From: Batillaria attramentaria
Lineage: Eukaryota > Mollusca > Gastropoda > Batillariidae
NCBI GenBank assembly: GCA_018292915.2
Contig: JACVVK020000032.1
Coordinates: 2,906,001-2,970,000 of the forward strand
Length of the DNA stretch: 64,000 bases
Direction: 5' to 3'
Shown here: positions 4,015 through 63,969 of the stretch, in pieces
Position numbering within the stretch: the stretch's first letter is position 1
Layout: each line of letters starts with the position of its first letter
Notes under the pieces: model-generated
Database searches by the model: none
Seen by the model: the letters and a program-made list of their open reading frames with translations, nothing else
What the model was told of the DNA's origin: nothing
Position numbers and translations under genes: made by a program

Positions 4015-7000
4015 AATAAACCAAAAGTGAAAACGCACAGCAATTCTAGCTTAGAGAAAATTGCAAAGTTTCAGAGCTGACTATAGGCAGAAATGCTCAT
4101 GTGTAAATGAACAGCAGTCTGAAACCATATCAACTCTTACTGGTATGACATGCTGTGACTTGCGATATCCCAGAACTAAAAGATGGTGCGCTCACACCAA
4201 TTATCTCCTTTTTGGTTCATGCACAGCTCTACTTCTTAACGATCCCTTTTGATATATTTCAAATTTGTCTCTGCGTATCTTTCGTGACCAAACCGTATTT
4301 CCGTATTCAACTGAGTTACACAGAAAATAATATGGCCAATCCATACTAGTTGGCACCTCTGGATATAAAGCCACTGACTGTAATCTACCTTGTTTACATC
4401 AAGAATGTGGACAGAGGCTCTTCTAACCACACTGACATATAATCTAAGTGTCTTCACAAACAACAGCTAACGCCCATGTCTGTACATGGCATCCTGGACA
4501 AAAGGCCAGCGAAATGAATCGACGATCGCTGTAACTTACACTTGAACAGTATTTTTTATACTTTTAAGTACACGTACACCACATTCTCTCAATCAAGAGC
4601 ATCACAAATCAATTTTTTTTTTCCTCCGAATATGTAAACCACAAAACCTCATTTTCACTTTGACCTACCTTCAGCAGTGCCTCCAGCGTCGATTCATCGC
4701 CGTGACGCATAACTGCGGTGTACACCTAACAATAAGAAAAACAGTTGAGATTTCTATTTTAGTGATGAGAAGAAGAATGGACCACGTGGACAAAAATAAT
4801 AATGATGATGATGAAAACCTATAAATGGGCTCCTTTCTCCCTCAAGACAGAAAGAAGACTCACAGGACTTCTCAAGTCCCCAGGCAGCGTCTGACTGCCG
4901 TCACAGTGTGCCTGAAAACGTCTCTTGGCTTCCTCCACCACGGACGGCTCGCCACAAGATCCAAGCTTCCCAAGTGTCAGGTCTCTCAGCAGAGCCGTGA
5001 GGTGACCTGAACATAGTAACACAGAAACAGACATAAAATACATCCAAGAGTGTGGTGCATACCAAAGATGAATGAACAAGTACATAACAGAGCCGTGAGG
5101 TGACCTGAACATAAGAACACAGAAACAGACATAAAATACATCCAAGAGTGTGGTGCATACCAAAGATGAATGAACAAGTACATAACAGAGCCGTGAGGTG
5201 ACCTGAACATAAGAACACAGAAACAGACATAAAATACATCCAAGAGTGTGGTGCATACCAAAGATGAATGAACAAGTACATAACAGAGCCGTGAGGTGAC
5301 CTGAACATAAGAACACAGAAACAGACATAAAATGCATGCAATAGTGTGGTGCATACCAAAGATGAATGAACAATTACATAACAGAGCCGTGAGGTGACCT
5401 GAACATAACAACACAGAAACAGACATAAAATACATCCAATAGTGTGGTGCATACCAAAGACGAACAATTACATAACAGAGCCGTGAGGTGACCTGAACAT
5501 AGCAACACAGAAACAGACATAAAATACATCCAATAGTGTGGTGCATACCAAAGATGAATGAACAATTACATAACAGAGCCGTGAGGTGACCTGAACATAG
5601 CAACACAGAAACAGACATAAAATACATCCAATAGTGTGGTGCATACCAAAGACGAACAATTACATAACAGAGCCGTGAGGTGACCTGAACATAATAACAC
5701 AGAAACAGACATAAAATGCATCAAATAGTTCAAAAGACGAATGAACAATTACATAACAGAGCTGTGAGGTGACCTGAACATAAGAACACAGAAACAGACA
5801 TAAAATGCATCAAATAGTTCAAAAGACGAATGAACAATTACATAACAGACAGTGTAACAGCGCTGAACAAGATTTCTAATGAAGATTTGATTAGAAGGCT
5901 GTTTTGTGTGAAAGCACTTTTCCTGGGGTTGTTGGGGGAAGGGGAGGGGGGGGGGAGGGACACACACACAACCACCACAATTCAGTAAACTTCTACAGCT
6001 GTACCAAAACAAAAACAAAACAAAAACAAATGAACAAAAATTCAAAGAGTAAGCACAGATAGATACTGTCATCTCTCACCTTCTCCTTCTTTTTTGTCCC
6101 AACCTAGGGTTTTATAAGTGGGCAGCAGGAGATCCGTGACGAAGCGCTGGAAGTCATCATGGGCGTCTGTATACTGCAGCGTCTGCCCCATGTCTGTGAG
6201 ACTGAAGATCAGGTCACTCCACACGGTGTAGTTATCTTCTTTCTGGTAAGCCTTCACCATCTTCAGAACCTCCACTGCGCTCACAAGGCCTGCCTCGGAC
6301 TGGACGTCAGAAAGGGTATACATTCAGAACTTATTTCCTCTGATGTCGTCGTTTGTTTTTGTTTTTTGTTGTTGTTTTTTTTTTTGGGGGGGGGGGGGAG
6401 GGGGGGGGGGAGTGTATTGTGTTTTTGCTTTTTTTGTTTTGATTGTTGTTGTATTTATGTTTTTGGTGGGTTTGTGTTTTTTATGTTTTGTTTTTTGTTT
6501 TGTTTTTGTTTGGTTGGCTTTTTTTTTTTAGGTTGAATAAAGAACTTTTAAGAACAACTCACGACTCTAAACACTCAAAAGTTTAAAAAAAAAAAAAAAA
6601 AGCAGTTGTATTTTTGCTTTTTTTGTTTTGGTTGTTGTTGTTATATTTATGTTGTTGTTTTGTTTTGTTTTGTTTTTTGTTTTGTTTTGCTTTGGGGGGG
6701 GGGGGGGGGTAATGTTTTTATGGTTTTTTTTTTGTTTTTTGTTGTTGTTGTTGTTTTTTTGTTTTTTTTTTGGGGGGGGAGGTTGAACAATGAACTTTTA
6801 AAAACAACTCACAACTCTAAACACTCAAAAGTTTAAAAAAAAAAGAAAAAAAAGAAAGCTGTTCTACACAGAGCTGTCACTATCATACCAGCGCAAAGAG
6901 GTCACTGAGAACCCCCAGCCTATCAACAGGAGGAAGCACTTTGTTCTCGATGCTAGGAACCAAGGCTTGCAGCATTTCGGGGCTGTACTGGACTCTGTAT

Positions 7001-13830: not shown

Positions 13831-15309
13831 ATCACTTTCATAAAATACAGATGGGATCTTGATAAAAAGAGCTGGGGGTGGGGGGGGGGAGGAGGGGGGG
13901 TAGTATTTACAGAAGGAGGTAACCCTAACCCCAACACCCTCAAGGGCCAAACTAAACTGCACGTTACTATCAACCTGCATGCACATACCATGGTGACAAG
14001 GTTTCCAAACCAGTTGTGTGCCAGCTCGTGGCCCACAATCAACGCAATGTACTGTTTTCTGGCAGAAGATGAAGTTGCTGGATCCAGCAGTAGAGCTGTT
14101 TCTCGGTAGATCACCAGGCCCCAGTTCTCCATAGCACCTGGGAAAAATGTAAAAGTACCACCTATTCCACAAGGTTACAACTAAGTGAAGGCTGGCATCC
14201 TAAAAAAGCATCAACAGCATACAGTGAATATTTTGTTGCATTTATTTGGTATCTTTATTGTCAATACTTTTTTTTACTCTATGCCGGCTCCAGTGGTGTT
14301 CTTCCCTGGTAATGGGTGGAATCCACGGAGGGCTCGAAAGTTGAGGCAATTTTTTTTTTATTATGCATGATGATGGAGATGAAGATGATAGTAAGATGAT
14401 GCTATGGAAGTCCGTGTGGTTTGGGACTGCGGGACAGGGCCGCATTCCACGCTTCCTGTCATAAATATCCCGGCATTAACCAGGCCCGGGAACTACAGCA
14501 CCTGCGGTGACAGCCGTGTAATCATCCACATCATAAGACGTGTCATACCAAGGGAAGCACGCCCAAAGTCGCACCTGTGAAGTGGGTGAAGCTCGGTTGT
14601 GTGGCAACAGCCTCCCCATTGGGCCCATAGCACACCCACTCTGGGTAGAAGCCGACCTAGGTAGGAAAATTCCCGCTTGCCTCAGCTGGGACTCGAACCC
14701 GGGTCTCCCGGTCCATAGTCTGAAGTGCTAACCAATTACACTATGGGGGCCGGTGACATTGTCAATACTGTTATTTTTCACGGAGTCAGAGGCTACAGAT
14801 ACTTTCAATTATGCACTCTATAAACATCATCATAATAATGATCACATTAATATAGGCATCAATTATGCACTCCATAAACATCATCATAATAATGATCACA
14901 TTAATATAGGCGTCAATTATGCACCTCTATAAACATCATCGTAATAATGATCACATTAATATAGATATCCCAAAGCACTGTGCACTAAACCAAACACACA
15001 CGCTCACGTGAATCACACGCATTCTCTCACAAACTGGACATGAACACCATTACAGTCATGTGGTGCCAAGGGCCAGCTCAGCAATCTAAGTTTCGGAGTT
15101 TTAATTTGCATTTATTTTTGGAATTTTGAGGGCTGAACATTCCAAAGCAGAGGGGGAGGAAGCTGGAGTACCGAGAGAGAACCCCCGACGGTCGTCCCAA
15201 ATGAACAGTGCCACACACGAGAAAGGAAAGTGGGATTTGAACCCGACCTCTCACATGGGTGACAATGTCTTAACCACTAGACCACCGATGTTGTTCTCTG
15301 CATACACAC

Positions 15310-38200: not shown

Positions 38201-39095
38201 GCACATACAGGGAGCATCACTAGGCAGTCATGTGTGTATTATACATACAGCCGGGGGCATCACTAGGCAGTCATGTATGCATTATACATACAGCCGGGGG
38301 CATCACTACGCAGTCATGTATACATTACACATACAGAGGCATCACTAGGCAGTCATGTATGTATTATACATACAGCCGGGGGCATCACTAGGCAGTCATG
38401 TATGTATTATACATACAGCCGGGGGCATCACTAGGCAGTCATGTATGTATTATACATACAGCCGGGGGCATCACTACGCAGTCATGTATACATTACACAT
38501 ACAGAGGCATCACTAGGCAGTCATGTATGTATTATACATACAGCCGGGGGCATCACTGGGTATAGTCATGTATACATTACACATACAGGGACATCACTAG
38601 GCAGTCATGTATGTATTACACATACAGCCGGGGCATCACTAGGCAGTCATGTATGTACATGTATTATACATACAGCCGGGGGCATCACTAGGCAGTCATG
38701 TATGTATTATACATACAGCCGGGGGCATCACTAGGTAGTCATGTATACATTACACATACAGAGGCATCACTAGGCAGTCATGTATGCATTATACATACAG
38801 GGGGCATCACTAGGCAGTCATGTATACATTACACATACAGGGGCATCACTAGGCAGTCATGTTTACATTACACATACACTGAGGGGCATCACTAGGTAGT
38901 CATGTCTACATTACACATACAGGGGCATCACTAGGTAGTCATGTCTACATTACACATACAGGGGCATCACTAGGTAGTCATGTCTACATTACACATACAG
39001 GGGCATCACTAGGCAGTCACCAGTGTATACATTACACATACAGGGGCATCACTAGGCAGTCACCAGTGTATACATTACACATACAGGGGCGTGAT
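38201..39095. repeat. ~43-bp minisatellite, about 21 copies
   Basis: The unit reads GGGGGCATCACTAGGCAGTC, ATGTATGTATTATACATACA, GCC. It contains the near-palindrome TGTATGTATTATACATACA. Copies vary in length (39-48 bp) and in the palindrome arm. Open frames across it simply reflect the repeat. Confidence 0.95.
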
Positions 39096-52529: not shown

Positions 52530-52859
52530 CTATTCACGCGCCATGGACACCTGACCCGGCGCCCCCTGCACCTCCTGTGCTTCTTGAACCAACGCACACA
52601 GCGTGCAAAAACAAATAAGCAGCAGGTCGTTTAACGTAGACCCCGGTATCCCCTTCTGCTCCCGAATCTTGCCTCGGATTTTCAGCGCCGCGATGATATT
52701 CACAATGGGGCAGAGATAAGCGAGACCGCAAGTGAAGCAGCTCTCCCCTACAGCCTCAGCATTCCGCCCGAACTGGTAGCACGGCACGAAGTAGGAGATG
52801 ATGCAAAGGCCGAAATTATCGAAGCAGCCGCAAAGTCCATGTTGCCAGTCAGCACTCAT
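52530..52859 (-). CDS. PLAC8/cornifelin-family protein, single exon
   Basis: A complete 109-aa protein with ATG at 52,859 and TAG at 52,530-52,532. An in-frame TAG lies 24 nt upstream (52,883-52,881), so this start is bounded. The PLAC8 domain covers most of the protein: WQHGLCGCFDNFGLCIISYF (5-24), VPCYQFGRNAE (25-35), a cysteine-rich hydrophobic stretch CFTCGLAYLCPIVNIIAALK (41-60), IRGKIREQKGI (61-71), and ND-LLL-FC-CALVQEAQEV (77-97). The family includes vertebrate PLAC8 and cornifelin and plant FW2.2/PCR proteins. Members are small, cysteine-rich and often membrane-associated, with varied roles including cell number control and metal transport. The usual CCxxxxCPC motif appears here as CIISYFVPC. 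The exact role is unknown. The minus-strand upstream region (52,884-53,200) would hold the promoter. Confidence 0.92.
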   Translation of the reverse strand: MSADWQHGLCGCFDNFGLCIISYFVPCYQFGRNAEAVGESCFTCGLAYLCPIVNIIAALKIRGKIREQKGIPGSTLNDLLLICFCTLCALVQEAQEVQGAPGQVSMARE

Positions 52860-54209
52860 GATTGCAGGTAGTTGGTGGATCTAATGTATGCTAACACGAT
52901 GCAAAACACACAGTCGCCAAAAGATGCGATGGAGAGGACGGCAACGGCTGAAAGACGAAAGCCGAGCAAGAGCCACACCTGAGTAGTCAGAAAAAATCCC
53001 GGCGCTCGATCAGCTATCTAGACCAACCGTGCAAAACTGTGCGCGTCTACTCCACAGCCCAAACTTGCCTCCTTGCCTCTCTCTTCTCTCTTCTGACTGG
53101 CTGCTGCGGCCGCTCTGTGTGCGCAAAGGAGAACGGGGGGGTGCGGTTCCGCGCAGGCGCACTCAGAACCCGTTTCACATTACAGTACGTGTAGAACTGG
53201 GAGCTGCGTGCAACTGGTGTGGCAGTGATGGTGGTTGTGAAAAGCGTTCAGGTTTGGATTCCCCCCTCCCCCCCCCCCGTGTCACCTCTTTTCTGCTTAG
53301 GTGTGCAACGCAGTTGACAAAAACGTCTGTCGTCACGGAAAAAGGGCCAAACCGCTATCGGATATGATAGGCGTTTCGACCTTCTTCTTTTTTTTCTAGA
53401 TACTAAACTGAACTAACGTCGGACCGGCGTAGTTTCGCTGAGTAAAGAGGGGAGCCGGTTTGCGTGCATGCATTCCATCAGTGTGCCACTCAGTCAAAAC
53501 TTGTGTTTAACTAACTTGTGATCAGTCTTTTGTGCTGCTGGCGCAGTGACAAATACTGAAAGGATTAGTAGACTGATGTTCTTATAGTAGCCTGCTGAAA
53601 CCGGTGACTGACGAGTAGTCGGCCCAGTTACTGAGACTGGGTTTGCCCGGATGTCTCAGTCGTGTCGGTGCTGACTGACAAAACAATAGGTTTTTTTTTT
53701 ATATATATGACTCGAGTAAGTTACCTCCGTGACCCGGCTGCGTAGCGGCAGCTTATCTTGACCGATTCCGTGCAGCCTATTTCAGTCTCAAATACTTGAC
53801 TGGAACTAAACTCGGCTCAAGTTTGCCGATAGGTCTCTACGGGCACAACTTTACTGACTTTAGAGCAAGTTCAGTCGTCAGTCCACGGCAACCTTATAGC
53901 AAAAACAGTCCATAAAAGCAACAACTAAGAATTATCACTAACAACACCGCTTCCTTTTGAAAATGTTTGACTCGAGCATCTACAGTAACCGCCGGGCCGT
54001 TGACTGTGACGCCACTGACTGGCGTGGATCATGAGTACTACGGACAAGGGATGCTGCTGGTGTGCGGGGCGGTGGGTGGGCCGGGGAGGTGGGGGCTCAT
54101 GGTGAGTGTGGTCCGTGACATTTTGTTAGGGCGCTTGCTTTAGCAGCATCGGCCCGCCCCGCAGGAAACACGGTGCTCTCACTGCAGTGATGGTATCTCA
54201 GTAAAACAG

Positions 54210-54955: not shown

Positions 54956-55942
54956 TCATTGTAGGAGTTTTTCATATGGGAGCCAATCTAATACAAATTT
55001 TGGCATTTTGCAAATGGTACCAAATCTGTATCTCTCAACACTGTATCGCTGTTTAAAAAGCTGAATAAAAACATCGATGTCTGGTCTTAGATCCTTGAGT
55101 CTACTTATATAAATATGATACTTGGCAAGTAGTAATAGCAAATCTATTACAGTGTCTGATTTAAAATTTCTTGCTACTCCGAACAAAACAAAGGTTTCTG
55201 TCAGAGATAATGTAGTACAGTTGTCACAGTTTCTCTTCAGCCATTCCTGCAACGAATTCCAAAATAACTGTACATGCGAGCAACCCCAGAACAAATGTCT
55301 TAAAGTTTCCTCTTCCATACCACAGAATGTACAGTTTGCAGAATCAGTTAGTTTCCTTAAGTGTAAGAATCTCTTTGTAGGTAGTAGGCGGTGTAAAAGT
55401 CTAAACTGAAACCATCGCATCTGCGGATCAGGAGTTGTTTTGATAGGTTTACAGAATATGAGATTCCATGACGGTAGATCAATAAAATGCTGTGACCACT
55501 TCACTGTACAGATAGGGGCTGAGTCAGGCTCAACAAAAACAGAGTAAATAAGCTTTGGATCTCCATGCATAATCAAAGTCCACACTTTGCTATCGTGTAC
55601 AGTACATTCATCAGTTTTCTCAATCCCTATCTGGCGCCTGTACTCCTTAGCAGCACTAATAACACCTGAGTACACAAGGAAATTGGAATTTAACAATGGA
55701 TATTTATGACAGAATTGTTCAAACTCTAAAAACTCCCCAGTAGGATCCATCAAGTGCCCAATAGCCAGTATTCCACTGTCTTTCCAATCTTGTATATGAA
55801 CAATTTTTCTGCCTCGTTTAACTTTAATGTTATAGTATAAGCGTTCAGAAACAAAGTCACTGTATCGTTCTGGTACACATTTGCAACTAAAATTTTTATA
55901 ATGCTTGACAACATCAACCGAAATATTACTTGAAAGTATCAA
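54956..55942 (-). pseudogene. LINE (L1/Tx1-like) reverse transcriptase C-terminal fragment
   Basis: A 328-codon open frame ends in a stop at 54,956. It lacks the catalytic YxDD region but has the post-catalytic part: MRWFQFRLLHRLLPTKRFLH, then the zinc-knuckle-like CTFCGMEEETLRHLFWGCSH (C-x2-C-x7-H-x4-C), then VQLFWNSLQEWL. This is the zf-RVT end typical of L1/Tx1-clade elements. It is 5'-truncated at the (CA)n block at 55,973. The long intact frame suggests a fairly young copy. Confidence 0.88.
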
Positions 55943-55970
55943 ACTTATCAGGCATCCTCGGCCCAGTCCC

Positions 55971-63488: not shown

Positions 63489-63699
63489 AAGGCATATTTA
63501 GTAAGACTTCGTCAAGAGGACTTCGCTGGGCAGCGTAACCCATTTACTGTACATGTAAATTAGGCACGTTAGGGGTACCATCAGCTAATGGTAGCGCGTT
63601 AGACGCTCGCGGCCTCTGCCGTAGGAGCCTAGTTTACATGTAAATGGGTTACGCTGCTCAGAGAACTACTCATTACGAAGTCATACTAAACATGCCTAC
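63489..63699. repeat. Palindromic element with tRNA-D-arm-like core
   Basis: CAGCGTAACCCATTTAC (63,531) is mirrored by GTAAATGGGTTACGCTG (63,641-63,657). Outside these, AAGGCATATTTAGTAAGACT is mirrored by CATACTAAACATGCCT. The core has CATCAGCTAATGGTAGCGCG, like a tRNA D arm / A box, but no B box. Confidence 0.65.
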
Positions 63700-63969
63700 T
63701 GTCCATTCAAGTGGTGGCGGAACAAGACACTACGCAGTTTCCAAAGAGAACCGGATTTTACTTTACTCCTCCGTACGAAGTAATACTAAACATCCCTACT
63801 GTCAATTCAACTGGTGGCGGAACAAGACATTACGCAGTTTCCAAAGAGAACCGGACTTTACTTTACTCCTCCTTACGAAGTAATAGTAAACATGCCTACT
63901 GTCAATTCAACTCAGTGGTGGCGGAACAAGACATTCATACGCAGTTTCCAAAGAGAACCGGACTTCACT
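63674..63969. repeat. 100-bp tandem repeat, three copies
   Basis: Units start TACGAAGT at 63,674, 63,774 and 63,874. The third has small insertions. The array may be cut by the window end. Confidence 0.93.

Follow-up and report, generated by a model that had tools for sequence, protein, structure and literature searches.

A mirage-type minisatellite with nine acceptor sequences at an intron-exon border of a puromycin-sensitive aminopeptidase gene in Batillaria attramentaria

The gene for a puromycin-sensitive aminopeptidase of the caenogastropod mud snail Batillaria attramentaria contains, at one of its intron-exon borders, a minisatellite in which a splice acceptor and the first 17 nt of the following exon are repeated in nine full tandem units, the genuine one included, which bears out the eight extra copies reported in a preliminary description of this DNA; the anatomy was well captured there. 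The array is a mirage minisatellite, a class already described in amphioxus, of which the snail member is new. The explanation preferred here, with a rough probability of 0.8, is that the array grew by recurrent tandem duplication and that its upstream acceptors are mostly ignored in splicing. Coordinates refer to the window, i.e. the whole analysed stretch of 64,000 nucleotides, which sits in a contig of 2,986,515 bases; the assembly searched has 715,342,989 bases in 863 contigs, and the B. attramentaria assembly described in PMC10382545 (863 contigs, about 715 Mb) was obtained with PacBio Sequel and Illumina polishing.

The gene and the anatomy of the array

The array-bearing gene lies on the minus strand and corresponds to the deposited protein BaRGS_00007454, the top protein match of the window in the protein database search, where it was found at 95% and the next match at 55% among the best 120 of 224 proteins, both values being protein comparisons without bearing on RNA. 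The Pfam domains of the gene are M1 N-terminal, M1 peptidase and ERAP1-like C-terminal. Two of the three matches of the local piece to solved structures were puromycin-sensitive aminopeptidases and the third was a glutamyl aminopeptidase; alignment to a puromycin-sensitive aminopeptidase of known structure also backed the exon junction (GEG|HLDALLR), as did the deposited protein, and the earlier identification of the gene as an aminopeptidase is correct. BaRGS_00007454 was mostly covered by tblastn blocks on the minus strand, with 19 blocks listed (counted from matches of at least 70%, exons 16 and 17 not being among them) and with 83–100% identity, a range due to some blocks that overrun exon ends. 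When joined, the three exons that surround the array agree with this protein, by which the exon 16 and 17 junctions were confirmed. The numbering "intron 16 / exon 17" used previously would need one more 5' exon, because by our own mapping the deposited partial model has 21 coding exons and the one with the copied start is the 16th. The previously given donor at 6080 and acceptor at 5006 were both recovered. The features are as follows.

6080–6299, minus: upstream exon, coding exon 15 of the deposited partial model by mapping to BaRGS_00007454, with the end ...GAAGGAGAAG|GTGAGA
5007–6079, minus: array-holding intron of 1073 nt (306 nt without the 767 extra nt)
5846–5849, minus: TCTG, present both in the outer flank and at every unit end, possibly a microhomology of the first duplication
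4990–5845, minus: array of nine units, from k0 on the exon side (4990–5087) to k8 (5757–5845)
5088–5773, minus: eight extra acceptors, scores 11.7–13.4
5007–5034, minus: genuine 3' splice site region, from the branch-point-like TTTAT (A at −28) to AG, score 10.7, the lowest of nine
4864–5006, minus: exon of 143 nt, the first 17 nt of which are copied in each unit
4726–4863, minus: next intron of 138 nt, donor CCT|GTGAGT

Counted from the exon outward (k0–k8), the units measure 98, 98, 98, 98, 94, 98, 94, 89 and 89 bp, and TRF gave the array a score of 1371 with 93% matches, which is far beyond chance. The tandem repeats span the exon-intron border, each unit ending 17 nt inside the exon, and they carry splice signals: a branch-point-like site, a pyrimidine tract, AG and the 17 exonic nt. 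Every unit's end reads CAG|GTCACCTCAC(G/A)GCTCTG, and the first exon bases after the nine acceptors are 5006 (genuine), 5104, 5202, 5300, 5398, 5492, 5590, 5684 and 5773. The AG was said to be kept in all extra copies, and CAG|GT is indeed present in nine of nine units; nine of the 10 AG dinucleotides in 5849–5007 are these acceptors. The splice-site sequence previously described as common to all units, TTATGTTCAG, is present in six copies, the other three, genuine one included, reading CTATGTTCAG; likewise the exonic 17 nt are identical in eight units and have one change in the outermost. A scan of the 60 nt upstream found one branch-point-like site in k0, TTTAT with A at −28, which the alignment shows unchanged in all nine units. 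The outer border lies at 5845/5849 instead of 5860 as proposed before, the 4-nt TCTG being common to the flank and the unit end at 5846–5849.

Turnover of the units and the paralogous intron

Units k1 and k2 are identical, and k0, the genuine unit, differs from both at two positions; k7 and k8 share a changed block together with a 9-nt gap, two positions setting them apart. According to these data a minisatellite-like turnover took place. Compared with the inner seven units the outer k7 and k8 show 6–11 substitutions and 9 or 13 gap columns, i.e. concerted evolution inside with divergent border units, as in mirages. The units near the exon have thus turned over recently, the outer ones earlier. 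A dispersed or mobile origin of the unit is unsupported, since the nine matches that the unit has in the 715-Mb assembly all fall at the array locus, in a search that scored one candidate region and skipped very common words.

In the aligned units the acceptor core varies in 3 of 45 columns versus 22 of 53 elsewhere, but selective conservation of the core is not supported, the Fisher test giving P 0.14 once gaps and blocks were counted as events (nine events, counted by hand). Few columns of the alignment vary as much as positions −11 and −10 of the pyrimidine tract; on the minus strand of 5000–5849 five different pairs of bases occur there among nine otherwise near-identical acceptors, and the cause was not found.

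The same strand carries another puromycin-sensitive aminopeptidase gene in tandem, BaRGS_00007455 (contig C32, 2,892,997–2,893,878), about 12 kb below the window start, with local exon matches of 45% and 53%. It has an intron of 516 nt at the same place with the single acceptor TGTGCAG|GTCACCTGACGGCC, in which no tandem repeat was found by TRF. Since the intron is at the same place in both paralogs, it probably predates their split, and the array would have arisen later in the BaRGS_00007454 gene or have been lost in BaRGS_00007455. With one acceptor and no array in the paralog intron, the array is evidently unneeded for splicing there.

Choice among the nine acceptors

The acceptors were scored with a matrix of 36 acceptors of the two paralogs, placed by homology without RNA check (of 39 placed, the genuine one and two that lacked an AG nearby were excluded). 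The genuine acceptor scored 10.7 and the eight copies 11.7–13.4, the gap stemming from positions −11 and −10; the genuine one ranked lowest under all 15 pseudocount and width settings and was strictly the lowest in 1893 of 2000 bootstraps. By this model, which has a small training set and whose score is no measured strength, it is not weak in absolute terms, ranking 25th from the bottom among the 37 sites of the leave-one-out list and being equalled or exceeded by 0.66% of the 7,300 AG in the window.

The deposited protein BaRGS_00007454 joins to the last acceptor at 5006, and the earlier suggestion that the spliceosome chooses the last of nine fits this published gene model. As the genuine site is the lowest-scoring of nine, position decides over strength if the deposited model is right. 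The annotation combined ab initio prediction, Trinity transcripts and homology (PMC10382545), so the last-acceptor junction is suggestive and no proof; at this point the model may derive from homology or from ab initio prediction.

According to the preferred explanation a segment of about 98 bp, consisting of the intron end and the first 17 exon nt, would have been tandemly duplicated and expanded to nine units, the first duplication being perhaps seeded at the TCTG microhomology. Splicing would still most likely use the exon-adjacent acceptor, because it alone precedes the full exon and is nearest to the downstream donor, and because the upstream intron of 1073 nt and the next one of 138 nt resemble the exon-definition-like layout of human genes. 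In the human data of PMC9225289 a long upstream and a short downstream intron mimic exon definition (cut-off 250 nt), and exon definition favours the site nearest across the exon. Due to this long-short layout, if the human rule is carried to the snail, position may outweigh the small strength deficit of the genuine site.

The acceptors k1–k8 would add 98, 196, 294, 392, 486, 584, 678 and 767 nt, respectively. The frame stays open through the next exon for k3 only, with 294 nt and 98 residues added; that three units keep frame had been stated correctly, and the third-copy product stays open as well. The k5 (486) and k7 (678) products are in frame by length, yet they meet TAA inside the array, and the five remaining acceptors shift the frame and lead to a stop, within the array for k8 and within the exon for k1, k2, k4 and k6. 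The effect on the protein had thus been overstated: one upstream acceptor gives a full-length product, and seven of the eight give a premature stop. As several exons are still ahead, these seven outcomes would likely undergo nonsense-mediated decay, and if the upstream products are mostly decayed the array would persist as nearly neutral baggage.

The low stop content of the array, taken before as a sign of translatable sequence, is unremarkable and is what the base composition yields. Ten stop triplets occur in three frames over 839 nt of the array, none of them below 5374; the three unit types have 0, 1 and 1 stops against shuffle means of 1.08, 1.60 and 1.53, and dinucleotide shuffles gave P 0.20, 0.45 and 0.48, so that a coding signal was rejected.

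Against the preferred explanation, all eight extra acceptors outscore the genuine one in the matrix model, the human preference for the upstream of two 3' sites at least 20 nt apart, reported as holding overall (PMC9225289), would point the other way, and the exon with k1 would measure 241 nt, still an ordinary size. The higher scores of the copies and the human preference also favour a leaky splicing, costly or useful, in which the upstream copies are used measurably, most products are decayed and the array length tunes the enzyme amount, with the k3 form longer by 98 residues. The open k3 frame speaks for it too, as does the human IFI6 minisatellite, whose repeated donors are reported to be used in mRNA. 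It is nevertheless judged unlikely: the deposited protein has the last acceptor only, amphioxus mirages are reported without disturbed splicing (PMC3087553, PMC3902484), and the k3 product piece gave no protein match at E ≤0.001 among 25 candidates in a search weakened by length limits, which hide full-length proteins.

Quite improbable is the array as a length-variable splicing tuner, where the copy number sets the amount of functional aminopeptidase mRNA and the third copy yields the form with 98 more residues. If this were true, each added unit would be a stronger acceptor upstream of a weak genuine one, and the added units would also lengthen the intron (from 306 to 1073 nt) into the range favouring the exon-proximal site.

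Scarless stepwise splicing would proceed by upstream joining that recreates AAG|GT, since the exonic part of each unit starts with GT, and by resplicing to the next acceptor until the last; alternatively the units could serve as raw material for a new intron. AGGT lies inside the duplicated segment in nine of nine units, and intron gain from duplicated AGGT segments or a duplicated intron-exon border is described in PMC3087553 and PMC4974935. However, the recreated donors AAG|GTCACC and CAG|GTCACC score 2.7 and 2.3, at the bottom of the 2.6–11.2 of the gene's 20 donors, and a score of at least 2.7 is reached by 19% of minus-strand GT dinucleotides, which makes this reading very improbable. An error of the assembly in the array or its copy number is hardly probable either: k1 and k2 are identical and the copy number can be misjudged with haplotig-purged, short-read polished PacBio Sequel subreads (PMC10382545), but the other units differ mutually by substitutions or 4- and 9-nt gaps, and with about 0.86 kb the array is small relative to the roughly 20-kb libraries (PMC10382545).

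Known systems and wider significance

The preliminary description overlooked that the class already bears the name "mirage" and has RT-PCR outcomes in amphioxus. Mirage minisatellites were described there in the globins BflGb6 and BflGb9 and in Adh3 (PMC3087553), to which TnC and PGBD5 were added (PMC3902484). As in the snail, the tandem units span the exon-intron border, many amphioxus units carry AG/GT signals, and the inner units are homogenised with the border units left out (PMC3087553, PMC3902484). An array length that differs between haplotypes or tissues is a further mark of the class. The closest in layout is BflGb6, an acceptor type composed of the intron end and the start of exon 2, with units of 150–160 bp and 81–100% identity, six and three of them in two haplotypes; RT-PCR suggests regular splicing (PMC3087553). 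The snail array differs in animal and gene, in its nine units of 89–98 bp, all with AG, and in the genuine site being the lowest-scoring; whereas the amphioxus mirages were studied by RT-PCR, it is known from genome sequence and the gene model, in one purged haploid assembly. The units of the human IFI6 (6-16) minisatellite (Turri et al. 1995) also carry splice sites, but these are donors, and the repeat units are reported to be used in mRNA species. In PMC4974935 copied AGGT segments yielded introns, in cases including ATP2A1 and potato RdRp. In potato RdRp the duplicated intron-exon border includes a branch site, a pyrimidine tract and a 3' site, as in the snail, and there a new intron emerged from it, whereas none is evident in the snail array, where the copied donor-like site is weak.

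A mollusc mirage was not found by titles or abstract starts among open-licence papers, which does not imply absence from print, and in the available passages of a gastropod hemocyanin paper (PMC7931591) the tandem duplications involve functional units and the term minisatellite is absent.

Other minisatellites of the window lie at 38202–39090 (units of 39–43 bp, about 21 copies), 63674–63969 (100-bp unit, 2.9 copies) and 14805–14964 (54-bp unit, 2.9 copies, within an intron of the aminopeptidase gene). On the minus strand the window also has an open stretch at 52533–52880 with a Pfam PLAC8 match (E 5.7e-23) and one of 337 codons at 54959–55969 with zf-RVT, the zinc-binding domain of reverse transcriptases (E 1.2e-8), probably part of a non-LTR retrotransposon.

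Since the mirage papers found among open-licence papers concern amphioxus, the snail array suggests that the phenomenon is more widespread. Minisatellites (period at least 30, at least 2.5 copies) make up 6,305 of 200,000 sampled bases of the genome (20 pieces of 10 kb at the same position in contigs C1–C20, a non-random draw), and other genes of this genome may therefore well have mirages. With arrays placed regardless of genes, about 5,200 of 164,674 acceptors would fall within arrays, a rough upper bound in which one 1.7-kb array weighs heavily and selection is ignored. In this snail gene nine near-identical complete acceptors, differing mainly by position and two pyrimidine-tract bases and with the genuine one scoring lowest, constitute a natural test of position versus sequence in 3' splice-site choice.
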